From positions 1 through 40,155 of IMG/VR virus record IMGVR_UViG_3300022827_000020: DNA of 40,155 nt, one strand, 5' to 3'. Position numbers and translations under genes: made by a program. Under the pieces are notes generated by a model. The model made no database searches, had not been told where the DNA came from, and was given only the letters and a program-made list of their open reading frames with translations. The DNA comes from a virus. Shown piece by piece: positions 29,428 through 39,917 of the stretch (position 1 is its first letter; each line of letters starts with the position of its first letter).

Positions 29428-29689
29428 ATCCTTGTCTTGTGTTTACGTTGTTAGCTCCCTGTTCTGACAGTGTAAGCATTTCTTTTTCAGAATCTATTCT
29501 GTTCAGTATTTCAAAAGCATCAAATATAGCTAGTTTCTTAGTCGCTGCTGCGTTCTTTAGCTTATCGGCAGCTAAGTCTCCACCTTCATCGTTTCCGTTA
29601 AGTATAGACTCCTCAGCGACCTTTATAAGTTCCAAAACAGCTTTATGCCCTGCCGCAATTATTTTTAGCTTTACTTCTTTACTTGTCAT
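29405..29689 (-). CDS. Small terminase subunit candidate
   Basis: A 94-residue, helical, charged protein directly upstream of and overlapping TerL. The segment DLAADKLKNAAATKKLAIFD followed by AFEILNRID would form a long helix suited to oligomerisation. Size and place match small terminase subunits such as T7 gp18 (about 89 residues). No helix-turn-helix is evident at the N-terminus (MTSKEVKLKIIAAGHKAVLE), so DNA recognition is not shown. The assignment is mostly positional. Confidence 0.5.
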   Translation of the reverse strand: MTSKEVKLKIIAAGHKAVLELIKVAEESILNGNDEGGDLAADKLKNAAATKKLAIFDAFEILNRIDSEKEMLTLSEQGANNVNTRQGFAERNSK

Positions 29690-30249
29690 AGCTTCAGTGT
29701 TATTTGATGGTCATACATTCTAAAGAGCTTTTCCCCATCGACAATGAACTCATATTCGCTATCAGGAGTAAAAGATACTTTATCTCCGGAACTAATACCT
29801 TTGCTTTTTAAATATTCGTTAGGATAAATCATTAAACCCATTAGTGGCTCTTCGCTAAATGGTTTTTTAATGTAAGACTCTGTAGCCGGGATTGGCTTTA
29901 CAAAACAGTATTTATCATAAGCATTCCAAGACTCTCCTTTTTTGTACATAAAAAATTGATCTGTTTCTATAAAGAAGAGGTCGTCTTTAAAGAAGCTTTT
30001 ACCGCTTTTTTGCCGCCCCCTCATGTCGTTGTAATATTTAAAAACATTGTGATGAACAAGTAAAGTATCGCCTATGGAAATAGGGCCGTTGTAACCAATT
30101 GGTAATTCGACAACCTCTGCATATCTGTTTGAAAACTTATGGTCTTCTTCTGAAGTACTAACAATAAAGTCAATACCTCCTATGTCTTTTGTGTTATCGT
30201 ATCTCTTACCGTTTATAGGTCTTGCTATGAAGTAAAAAGGAGACTTCAT
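29686..30249 (-). CDS. Conserved protein with two possible GroES-like halves
   Basis: A 187-residue protein with an internal symmetry that recalls co-chaperonin 10. The second half (about 113-187) reads KYCFVKPI, then EEPLMGLMIY, GISSGDKVSF, YEFIVDGEKLFRM and ITLKL, parallel to Cpn10's VKPI ... GEVVAVG ... VKVGDRVLF ... VDGEEYLIMRE ... DILAV. The first half (about 5-100) has FIARPI, AEVVEL, ISIGDTLLVHHNVF and FFIETDQFFMYK in the same order. The family seems well conserved in flavobacterial phages next to terminase. The GroES relation is my reading of the pattern and not proven. The stop overlaps the TerS candidate start by four bases. Confidence 0.5.
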   Translation of the reverse strand: MKSPFYFIARPINGKRYDNTKDIGGIDFIVSTSEEDHKFSNRYAEVVELPIGYNGPISIGDTLLVHHNVFKYYNDMRGRQKSGKSFFKDDLFFIETDQFFMYKKGESWNAYDKYCFVKPIPATESYIKKPFSEEPLMGLMIYPNEYLKSKGISSGDKVSFTPDSEYEFIVDGEKLFRMYDHQITLKL

Positions 30250-33873: not shown

Positions 33874-35250
33874 TTATTGATTATTTTGATTACTATTTCC
33901 GTCTATGCAAAGAACAACACGTCCCGCCCCTGATTTGGTTATGAAAGTACCTGACGTCAAACGGCAGTAGTAAAGTTTACCTGATAGTGTACCTGTTATC
34001 GCGTTACTCCAGTTTCTACCGCCAAAAGACTTATCCCCGCTCATACAATAACTAAACAATCCTGATGCCGTACCAGCATGACCACCAAATGAATAAGTAT
34101 CTCCGATGCAATTAATAAATGTACCTGATGCCGTACCATTACCACCAAATGAATATACATTTCCTGTACAATTAGTAAATATGCCTGATGCTGTACTACT
34201 ACCACTGCCGCCCCCAAATGAACCTGTACCAGACTGAACTCTACAATTAATAAATGAACCGTTCGCTGTACCATTAGGGCCACCACCAAAAGCTCCGCCT
34301 TCTCCTGTACAATTAGTAAATATACCTGATGCCACACCATTACTAGCGAATGAGCCTGTGCAATTAATAAATATACCTGATGCTACACCATTAGCACCGA
34401 AGGACGAAGATTTTGCTATGCAATTAATAAACGTACCTGATGCCGTACCTGATTCCGCAAATGCTGACGAACCTCCTTCACAATCAATGAATTTACCGGT
34501 CAAGTTACCTCCCGACCCAGAAAAAGATAAGTCTCCGCCTTTACATTTTTCTAGTATTAACTTATTTAGGTTTCCAAAAACAAAAAAATTCTTTTTCAAA
34601 ACGTCAACACCTTTTACAAAAATATTGTTTGCTGAAATCTCGATGGTGTTTACACCATTAAAAACAATACTACTATTTCCGTCTAATGAAACTAAATCAA
34701 CATATTCGGTATCCATGATAAAATTTCCATTTTCAAAATTGTAAATTCCCGGAGCGGCGATTACGATTGACCTTACAGTTTCCAGAGTGTAAACACGAAC
34801 ATCGCCTTCATTATATGTAAACGCTGTCGGAAATTCAACCTCATACATAGAACCACCACTTTCCGTAATGACTTCTCCTATCATATCAACCCCTTCAACA
34901 TTAAAAGTATAAGATTGTCCTTGAATTAAAATTGGTAAAGTTCCACTAAAATCAAAAAATTCAAGCATGGTTGGTGTTTGTTGGTAAGGGTAATCATAAG
35001 GTGCAGAAAGAGCTTGCGTAGTTTGAATTTTTGTAATTGCTAAATCATAAGCTGCTTGCAATTCTATTGCATTCTCAATATCTGTACCATTTGCTTGTAC
35101 AAATACATATTGAGTGCCTATCAACCCTTTTGATGCAGATAGCAGAGCTGCTGTTGGTATTTTTTTATTATCAACTCCATAACCCACTAAAAAGGGTATG
35201 TCTGCAACTTCTTGAGTTTCTGAAAATTCTGAAAATTTTATATTAGCCAT
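33874..35250 (-). CDS. Putative tail fibre/spike with beta-helix Cys repeats
   Basis: A 458-residue protein. N-terminal part (1-60, MANIKFSEFSETQEVADIPF) looks like a fibre attachment module; residues 60-235 are beta-rich; residues 248-434 form about nine short repeats of the type GTASGTFINC ... SFGGN with one Cys in the same place in each. Such repeats suggest a right-handed beta-helix, like those of tailspikes and adhesins, with stacked Cys and Phe residues. No catalytic residues are evident, so receptor binding rather than hydrolysis is likely. Low-complexity DNA repeats underlie the rungs. Confidence 0.65.
   Translation of the reverse strand: MANIKFSEFSETQEVADIPFLVGYGVDNKKIPTAALLSASKGLIGTQYVFVQANGTDIENAIELQAAYDLAITKIQTTQALSAPYDYPYQQTPTMLEFFDFSGTLPILIQGQSYTFNVEGVDMIGEVITESGGSMYEVEFPTAFTYNEGDVRVYTLETVRSIVIAAPGIYNFENGNFIMDTEYVDLVSLDGNSSIVFNGVNTIEISANNIFVKGVDVLKKNFFVFGNLNKLILEKCKGGDLSFSGSGGNLTGKFIDCEGGSSAFAESGTASGTFINCIAKSSSFGANGVASGIFINCTGSFASNGVASGIFTNCTGEGGAFGGGPNGTANGSFINCRVQSGTGSFGGGSGSSTASGIFTNCTGNVYSFGGNGTASGTFINCIGDTYSFGGHAGTASGLFSYCMSGDKSFGGRNWSNAITGTLSGKLYYCRLTSGTFITKSGAGRVVLCIDGNSNQNNQ
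33949..34509. repeat. Imperfect repeat array encoding beta-helix rungs
   Basis: About nine units of 17-27 codons, each with a G-x-A-S-G-x-F-x-N-C core. DNA-level identity is strong between adjacent units (e.g. around 34060-34200), suggesting expansion by recombination. Confidence 0.8.
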
Positions 35251-37428: not shown

Positions 37429-37872
37429 ATGAAATCAAATGCACATGATTACCTCAAATATTGGAAAGTAATCCGTCAGTATGTAAAAGTAAAATACGGA
37501 CTAACTCAGTCTGACTTAGATATGCTTTTATTCTTGTACTCGGAGAAGTATTTTAATAAGGCAAAGTTTGATGAGTTTGATGCTTTGCTTAGTTGGGATA
37601 AGTGCCGATTTGAAAGCTTAAGAGAAAAGGGATGGATTGTTGCTTTTAGAACAAGAGCAGTTGGTAATAAGGCAATATATCAGTTAACGGTAAAGTCCGA
37701 CTATATGATTAAGTCAATCTACCGAAAGCTTAGCGGAGAAGAAATCCCGGTTAGCCCATCACAGAATAAAATGTTTGCAAAAAACGTATCATATCTTGAC
37801 AAAGTTTACCAAGATATGATTAAAAGAATGAATGCTGTTATAAAACAACAACGACATCTCTCTCAGAAATAA
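37429..37872 (+). CDS. Winged-helix (MarR-like) DNA-binding regulator
   Basis: A 147-residue protein, the only + strand gene in the late half. HDYLKYWKVIRQYVKVKYGL is followed by TQSDLDMLLFLYSEKYFNKA, a winged-helix core like that of MarR proteins, then the recognition and wing segment SWDKCRFESLREKGWIVAFR and RAVGNKAIYQLT. A well-conserved gene type in flavobacterial phages by my memory. It diverges from the tiny-gene operon across a 56-base gap with two facing -7 boxes, so autoregulation and control of late genes are plausible. The 3' end overlaps the chaperonin operon's last gene by 35 bases, tail to tail. Confidence 0.7.
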   Translation: MKSNAHDYLKYWKVIRQYVKVKYGLTQSDLDMLLFLYSEKYFNKAKFDEFDALLSWDKCRFESLREKGWIVAFRTRAVGNKAIYQLTVKSDYMIKSIYRKLSGEEIPVSPSQNKMFAKNVSYLDKVYQDMIKRMNAVIKQQRHLSQK

Positions 37873-38317
37873 TCGTAAATTGTTTGTCCTCGATTAGCAT
37901 TGTAAAACCCTGAGCTTTGTCATAGTAGATTTGGTCATCTTTTTTAATGGCCGGATTTACATCTGTGCCTGTCTCGATAATCAAACCACGTTTGTATCTC
38001 ATTTGATTTACGTCATCTCCTGATAAGATTATCCCTGACTCTGTTTTTATTTGCTCGTCAATATTTTTTATTGCGATGTACTTTCCGATTGGTTTCATAT
38101 TGTAATTTTGTTTAGATTCGTCTTTCCAATTTAACCAAAAACCTAAGGCCACAATTATATTCATTCCTAGAGATGAAAGAACCATGGCTAGGTCTTGGTA
38201 AATGTTTAAGGTTAAGTGAACGTGCCCTACCACCCAAAATGGTATTGATAGATTACACGCTACCCAAACTATTGTAAATCTTAAGAATCTTTTAATTTGA
38301 TTCAGATGATTCTCCAT
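37838..38317 (-). CDS. Membrane-anchored GroES-like co-chaperonin
   Basis: A 159-residue protein of two parts. Residues 1-73: a basic N-terminus and two hydrophobic spans (about 14-32, FTIVWVACNLSIPFWVVGHV; and 44-64, AMVLSSLGMNIIVALGFWLN). Residues 74-159 are a complete Cpn10 domain: MKPIGKYIAIKN, the mobile-loop hydrophobic motif GIILSG (95-100), YKRGLIIETG, IKKDDQIYYDKAQG, and a final TIISERDVVVVL. Positive charges before span 1 and two spans would place the GroES part in the cytoplasm. An internal ATG at 38098 could also make a soluble GroES of 86 residues. It overlaps the end of groEL by 26 bases (translational coupling) and converges with the wHTH gene. GroES identity is strong; the fusion is the unusual part. 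Confidence 0.75.
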   Translation of the reverse strand: MENHLNQIKRFLRFTIVWVACNLSIPFWVVGHVHLTLNIYQDLAMVLSSLGMNIIVALGFWLNWKDESKQNYNMKPIGKYIAIKNIDEQIKTESGIILSGDDVNQMRYKRGLIIETGTDVNPAIKKDDQIYYDKAQGFTMLIEDKQFTIISERDVVVVL

Positions 38318-39917
38318 AGCTACGTGCCATTGTTATTGTGGCATTTGTGCTTAGTATAGATACCGCAACACTAACAGCGTTTTGCAAAGCACTCCGGGTT
38401 ACTTTCAACGGGTCAATAATCCCCATCTTTACTAAGTCTCCCATCTGTCCGTTTTTTAGATTGTATCCATGCCCCTGCTCAAGAGGTATATCCCCGTAAA
38501 TGTCCTTTGCCTTTAGACCTGCGTTTGCAAGTATCTGAAGGAATGGAGCCATTAAAGCTTCCTTTACAATCATGCTCGCAACGTCTTTCTCTACGGACTG
38601 CCCTGCTGTTGTGCCTATTACAGCGCTTTCCTCAAGTAATGATTTACCTGCTCCCGGAAGTATGCCCTCCTCAAGTGCAGAACGAACCGAACACACAGCA
38701 TCGTCAACTCTGTCAAATAGCTCCTTTTGGGCTAGGTCTGTTTGACCTCCAACAAATATCACTCCAATACCCCCGGTTAAAGATGCTATGCGCTCTAGTA
38801 TGAAGTCTTTCTCGTTTTTCTTGTTTGCGTTCTTATGTGCCTCCCAAAGCTGAACAACTCTATCAGCAATTACATCTTGGTCTGCTTTTAATGCCGACTT
38901 AATAATAATGGTTTGGTCTTTGCTCACAATTACTTTTGCTGCATGGCCTAAATCGTCAAAGTTAATAATGCTGAGGTCATCTCCTGTTTTCTCACTGAAG
39001 TATGTCGCCCCAACGCTTATTGCAATGTCGTGCATTAGCTCATGCTGCTTGTAACCAAATCCCGGAGGTGGTACAATACATATCTTAGCATTTCCCTTCA
39101 TTACGTTTGCAGCAAAGGTGTTTACAACATTTGAGTTACAAGGGGATATTATTAATAGCTTTTTCCCCTCGCTAATTACAGGCTTTAATACGTTCTCAAT
39201 CTGAAGGATATTACTTATCTCCATGTCAGCAACCAATACCATCACGTCCTCAAAAACACACTCGTCTCTTTTTTGGTCATTAACAAACATTGGGCTCATG
39301 TACCCTCTATCAAACTTAAGCCCCATGGTGGTCTCCGAATAGGTCTCATCTGTTTGGCTCCTCTCCACTGTTACAATACCTGTCTTGCCAACATCTTTAT
39401 AAACGTCAGCAATTATGCGACCTATCTCTCTATCGTTGTTTGCAGAGATGCTGGCCACCTCAATAAGCATAGAACTTGTAACTTTTTTAGCTCTTCGTTT
39501 AAGCCTATCTACAACAGAATTGCTTACATCAACCATAGCACGTAAAACCTCTGTTCGATTGTGTTCTTCTTTTATTCTCTCAAGACCTCCCAATACTAAT
39601 GCCTCTGTAAGTACAATTGCCGTAGTTGTTCCGTCCCCCGCTGAAGTAGCAGTGCGCTCAGCAGCTTCCTTCATCATCTTAACTGCTAAGTTCTCTAATG
39701 GGTCTAGCAACTCAATAGCCTTTGCAACAGTAACACCGTCTTTTGTTACAGTAATCCCATGTGTGTGATTCGGAGACTCTATCAGAACAGTATTACCTCC
39801 CGGCCCTAAAGTGCTTTTTACTGCTTTCGATAGTTTTACTACGCCATTTACTAATTTTTTCCTCCCACTATCCCCAAAATGTAAATCCTTTGGGGAATAT
39901 CCTTGATTTTCTAACAT
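38292..39917 (-). CDS. groEL: Phage GroEL chaperonin (Cpn60)
   Basis: A 541-residue, full-length group I chaperonin. Visible sites: TLGPGG (36-41, with Gly for the usual Lys), TKDGVTVAKAIEL (Asp60), GDGTTTA (94-100, Asp95), FDRGYMSPMFV, ERIASLTGGIGVIFVGG, RVDDAVCSVRSALEEG (third nucleotide-site Asp) and MGIIDPLKVTRSALQ. The GGM repeat tail of bacterial GroEL is replaced by ARSYGESSESN. Its motif differences and gene context (next to a fused GroES and phage late genes) mark it as viral, not host DNA contamination. Phage chaperonins usually fold phage proteins such as capsid subunits in their own cage; the substrate here is unknown. A -7 box lies 26 bases upstream. Confidence 0.95.
   Translation of the reverse strand: MLENQGYSPKDLHFGDSGRKKLVNGVVKLSKAVKSTLGPGGNTVLIESPNHTHGITVTKDGVTVAKAIELLDPLENLAVKMMKEAAERTATSAGDGTTTAIVLTEALVLGGLERIKEEHNRTEVLRAMVDVSNSVVDRLKRRAKKVTSSMLIEVASISANNDREIGRIIADVYKDVGKTGIVTVERSQTDETYSETTMGLKFDRGYMSPMFVNDQKRDECVFEDVMVLVADMEISNILQIENVLKPVISEGKKLLIISPCNSNVVNTFAANVMKGNAKICIVPPPGFGYKQHELMHDIAISVGATYFSEKTGDDLSIINFDDLGHAAKVIVSKDQTIIIKSALKADQDVIADRVVQLWEAHKNANKKNEKDFILERIASLTGGIGVIFVGGQTDLAQKELFDRVDDAVCSVRSALEEGILPGAGKSLLEESAVIGTTAGQSVEKDVASMIVKEALMAPFLQILANAGLKAKDIYGDIPLEQGHGYNLKNGQMGDLVKMGIIDPLKVTRSALQNAVSVAVSILSTNATITMARSYGESSESN

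Follow-up and report, generated by a model that had tools for sequence, protein, structure and literature searches.

The 40,155-nucleotide stretch of viral DNA analysed here (the window), taken from a metagenome virus record, carries on its minus strand a 159-codon open reading frame (37838..38317, (-); 159 aa, ATG start) that joins a two-helix membrane protein in frame to a GroES co-chaperonin. The best explanation, to which we assign a probability of roughly 0.6, is a recent, lineage-specific gene fusion in an operon that makes both a soluble GroES and a 159-residue fusion, the latter with a hairpin in the inner membrane.

The frame itself was borne out. As the first-pass annotation of this DNA had described it, with correct coordinates and counts, it is continuous, contains two hydrophobic spans and a full Cpn10 domain, and is coupled to a phage GroEL, its start overlapping the 3' end of an intact groEL by 26 bases (38292..38317, (-)). 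This GroEL (38292..39917, (-); 541 aa) matches Pfam Cpn60 (1e-55) and PHROG 5725 (2e-129), and matches GroEL structures over its full length. No stop codon separates the two-helix half from the GroES half in two strains. The L001 contig equals the window sequence over 8.3 kb, with an identical fused frame, and the L002 contig shares ~98.8% DNA identity with the window over its first 4.9 kb (53 mismatches); between the fused ORFs of L002 and the window there are two differences, a silent change and V17I, and none at the junction. A search for recurrence of the fusion among viral sequences, suggested along with the original description, thus recovered it in a second strain. L002 bears another IMG sample number and has 53 mismatches to the window, so it was assembled separately, and the same junction in a diverged sequence makes a sequencing or assembly error that joined two frames extremely improbable, and we rejected a frameshift between two ORFs on these grounds. 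The junction moreover reflects a rearranged gene order, more than one base away from the order found in relatives.

The GroES half (37841..38098, (-)) would comprise 86 aa if translated alone from an internal ATG. Residues 74-158 of the fused ORF match Pfam Cpn10 (PF00166) at 8e-13, with 48.7 bits against a curated cut-off of 21.1, and residues 73-158 match PHROG 3188, ‘co-chaperonin GroES’, at 8e-16. The GIIL motif at residues 95-98 (38024..38035, (-)), previously proposed as the mobile loop, indeed aligns with the mobile loop of Cpn10s of solved structure, and its G95 and L98 are invariant across 24 aligned rows. The roof hairpin is missing from the domain, which shows an 8-residue gap at this place relative to Thermus Cpn10; gp31 of T4 likewise has no roof hairpin, so the gap is no defining loss. 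The top Foldseek matches were all Cpn10 proteins (1p3h, 5e-4), with T4 gp31 among the weaker ones (rank 14), using a structure prediction of low confidence (pLDDT 58) that we did not count as evidence for the hairpin. Convergent with groES, and overlapping its 3' end by 35 bases, lies a 147-aa ORF (37429-37872, (+); PHROG 17028) that most relatives also have next to groES (cluster 4, 62 loci) and that is annotated ‘repressor protein’ in MW202828.

For the membrane half (residues 1-73; 38099..38317, (-)), the first-pass annotation had placed hydrophobic spans at residues 14-32 (38222..38278, (-)) and 44-64 (38126..38188, (-)). Kyte-Doolittle peaks start at residue 12 (1.60) and residue 44 (1.89), and rough insertion energies are +1.15 for the first span (marginally hydrophobic) and 0.03 for the second. 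Two spans, at about 12-32 and 44-64, thus hold up, the second convincingly and the first only marginally. The first span includes the motif NLSIPFW, which is nearly invariant among 67 family members, and the longer pattern NLSIPFW..GH.(H/N)L..N.Y.D is almost unchanged among them. The hairpin pattern, kept by the 67 members, and the frame shared with L001 and L002 go beyond chance. Across these members, positive charges occur on both tails and none in the loop. Because of this charge bias, we infer that the protein inserts into the membrane with both termini inside (N-in/C-in), an orientation that would leave the GroES domain in the cytoplasm, alongside GroEL.

The two-helix protein belongs to a widespread family: at least 568 stretches of viral contigs match it, and the genes around them vary greatly. 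All the other members seen are stand-alone proteins of about 60-95 aa. The family (motif NLSIPFW..GHVHL) occurs in several unrelated neighbourhoods; examples are L028:5302-5517, L081:4001-4207 and L087:3947-4201. Pfam, PHROGs and NCBIfam yielded nothing convincing for the membrane half, and tblastn against named phage records gave no match, although in that search a hydrophobic query may be masked by the low-complexity filter. GroEL was detected in 5 of 18 larger records carrying the two-helix gene (records that may be incomplete), which weakens the idea that the membrane half is an obligate GroEL partner. As the family often occurs with no detected GroEL, the protein seems able to do its own work independently of the chaperonin. 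We regard these proteins as an unnamed phage family of high conservation, which deserves its own characterisation.

Within this family, the fused lineage retains all fully invariant residues. Glu45, present in 66 of the 67 members, is replaced by Met in the window, and the fused lineage alone lacks it, suggesting that the function of the membrane half may be altered or relaxed. The dN/dS of the membrane-half core relative to L003, the unfused sister lineage, is ~0.16, as against 0.07-0.11 for unfused pairs (small numbers); the membrane half is still constrained, if perhaps somewhat relaxed. Alignments that combined fused and membrane-only rows were misaligned across helix 2 and were discarded.

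We then compared the locus with its relatives. Two scans together yielded 72 distinct groES loci: two are fused and belong to one clade, 31 have a separate upstream two-helix ORF, and in 39 none was detected (7 of these 39 have short flanks). The usual order is groEL, the two-helix gene (~62-82 codons, sharing bases with the groEL 3' end), none to several small unrelated ORFs, and groES. In these relatives GroES is a stand-alone ORF, starting at, or no more than two residues from, the Met equivalent to window position 38098. The two parts that the first-pass annotation had described as one protein are therefore separate genes in 31 loci and in the sister lineage L003, and its fusion does not extend to these relatives. 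A scan for the junction-spanning DNA pattern returned L001, L002 and the unfused L019 only, and revealed no further fusion. Together with the 72 loci, this rules out fusion as a general trait of phage GroES. By a cruder measure, no stop-to-stop frame longer than 155 codons was present among the ~150 Cpn10 matches listed from a cellular background (247 genomes, one phylum), compared with 164 codons in the window.

In a GroEL tree, the fused pair grouped together (100/98) as sister to the unfused L003 (100/100), whose GroES is 95% identical to the GroES domain of the window. In L019, the two-helix gene and groES are directly adjacent, in different frames, with an ATGA overlap, and L063 is similar. 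L019 falls elsewhere in the tree and L063 lies on a long branch, its placement unsure; these positions imply that the two genes came to lie side by side on more than one occasion. The ATGA overlaps of L019 and L063 also show that the ORFs between the two-helix gene and groES can be lost. The in-frame fusion, by comparison of these sequences, looks like a single, recent event. The separate two-helix ORF of L003 (L003:4765-4953) is shortened by a frame change at a G run, representing either decay or a sequence error.

To compare the two potential starts of the fused ORF, we built a start weight matrix from 89 gene starts and scored 235 internal in-frame ATGs with it. The internal ATG (38098), with its A-rich initiation region (38096..38118, (-)), scored 7.4, which is the 85th percentile of the 89 gene starts and higher than any of the 235 internal ATGs; in most relatives, the start of the stand-alone groES scores similarly. 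For the upstream ATG (38317) the score was -3.1; the separate membrane gene of relatives, which also starts inside groEL, scored -3 to -7. Predicted RNA structure was -0.9 kcal/mol at the internal start region versus -5.3 kcal/mol at the upstream start. Bacteroidetes naturally lack Shine-Dalgarno sequences; in Flavobacterium, adenines at -3, -6, -12 and -13 together with low structure favour initiation (PMC6847099). By its terminase, this phage is a relative of phages of Flavobacterium and Cellulophaga. One contig that shares the order groEL, membrane gene, groES (L116) was binned in an Aureispira MAG.

Given the strong context of the internal start and the little structure around it, an 86-residue soluble GroES is very likely still produced from ATG 38098. 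The second product suggested by the first-pass annotation is hence probable, the internal start context being far stronger than the upstream one. The fusion would be produced by coupled re-initiation, as presumably is the separate membrane protein of relatives. The internal initiation context could also be a carry-over from before the fusion; the two fused strains, one silent and one replacement change apart, have diverged too little to reveal whether selection maintains or removes it.

These observations can be assembled into a working model of the fusion. In the fused lineage, the small intervening ORFs are absent and the flanking genes form a single frame, with the groES start retained. Ribosomes initiating at the internal ATG (38098) would make ordinary soluble GroES that caps the phage GroEL, while those completing groEL and restarting at the weak, overlapping ATG (38317) would make the 159-residue fusion. 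Its hairpin would span the inner membrane, its two ends and the GroES tail being cytoplasmic, and would continue the membrane protein's own job. Since GroES works as a heptamer, a ring of seven subunits, fusion subunits may enter mixed rings and take a share of the lids to the membrane, which would be either a side effect or a function in the making. Anchored subunits could in this way bring GroEL to the membrane, by analogy with T4, whose prohead assembly begins on a membrane-bound portal (PMC9958956), and with the service of a phage co-chaperonin in capsid folding (PMC3012670).

Two other explanations accept the frame and differ in what they make of it. It is conceivable, if unlikely, that the fusion is pure accident, in which case only the 86-aa GroES would matter, the fusion would be a rare or quickly degraded by-product, and the membrane protein would have become dispensable in the fused lineage. 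The weakness of the upstream start is consistent with this, as are the loss from the fused lineage of the near-invariant Glu45 (found in 66 of the 67 members), the frameshifted membrane ORF of the sister L003, and the 39 of 72 loci that show no two-helix gene near groES. However, every fully invariant residue of the membrane family is retained, the dN/dS of the membrane half is well under 1, and the upstream start is just as weak in relatives whose membrane gene is clearly conserved.

The opposite proposal, that of the first-pass annotation, was a membrane-tethered lid. The recurring frame behind it is real. As a dedicated device it is weakened by the unfused state of relatives, the frequent occurrence of the two-helix family with no detected GroEL, and the stronger internal start, so that at most some subunits would be tethered, in one young lineage. 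We consider it rather improbable that all or most GroES is anchored in the inner membrane, where GroEL would fold capsid, portal or membrane-associated proteins of the phage, the soluble lid role, if needed, being filled by host GroES or by a tandem GroES-like protein encoded beside the terminase gene (29686-30249). We are equally doubtful of a ring with some or all of its subunits membrane-anchored and its mobile loops in the cytoplasm, which would recruit GroEL, for example for folding capsid or portal proteins at the start of the prohead. The dedicated lid would be in line with the two strains lacking a stop between the parts, with the predicted N-in/C-in topology that places GroES in the cytoplasm with GroEL, with the presence of a second GroES-like gene, and with the membrane-bound start of T4 proheads (PMC9958956) and the role of a phage co-chaperonin in capsid folding (PMC3012670). 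Yet the internal GroES start is kept in a strong context, the fusion is confined to one clade, relatives with the same GroEL do without it, and the membrane family is frequently found with no detected GroEL. A recent fusion that yields both soluble GroES and an anchored product remains our preferred reading.

Compared with known systems, the GroES of the window resembles that of the Elemovirus Flavobacterium phages, T4 gp31 and RB49 CocO in being phage-encoded and in having a predicted Cpn10 fold and a mobile loop, and Elemovirus groES, like that of the window, adjoins a phage groEL. These co-chaperonins are stand-alone and soluble, whereas the GroES of the window is preceded by a fused two-helix protein; T4, furthermore, uses the host GroEL (PMC3012670), whereas this phage encodes its own. 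L003, L019 and the other unfused relatives have the same GroES domain, GroEL neighbour and start Met, but keep the two-helix gene separate. Residues 1-73 of the fusion are a member of the NLSIPFW family, whose other members stand alone. Chloroplast Cpn20 is, like the fusion, a naturally extended co-chaperonin; it consists, however, of two tandem GroES domains with no membrane part, and resembles the 29686-30249 protein rather than the fusion. In the open-access literature that we searched, there was no described case of a membrane-placed chaperonin lid. If made, the fusion would offer a natural means of placing a chaperonin lid at the membrane. Even should it be a side product, related phages span the states in which the genes are apart, overlapping and fused, and the nested start could serve as a compact test of how well a co-chaperonin that works as an oligomer copes with tethered subunits.

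The GroES-like gene at 29686-30249 ((-); 187 aa) directly precedes the gene for the terminase large subunit and matches PHROG 13932; its protein is annotated ‘co-chaperonin GroES’ in Elemovirus phages and has at least 595 matching viral-contig stretches. A profile comparison between this protein and the GroES alignment gave no match, both alignments being shallow, and a structure match was used instead: the protein is predicted to form two tandem GroES-like domains, and its best structural match is the Cpn20 subunit 7ekq_R (E 6e-4). On the basis of this model, the phage may carry two co-chaperonins. Elsewhere in the window, a 458-aa ORF (33874-35250, (-)) contains many imperfect repeats with a unit like ‘FINCxGxxxSFGGNGTASG’, and may encode a tail fibre or decoration protein with a beta-solenoid form.
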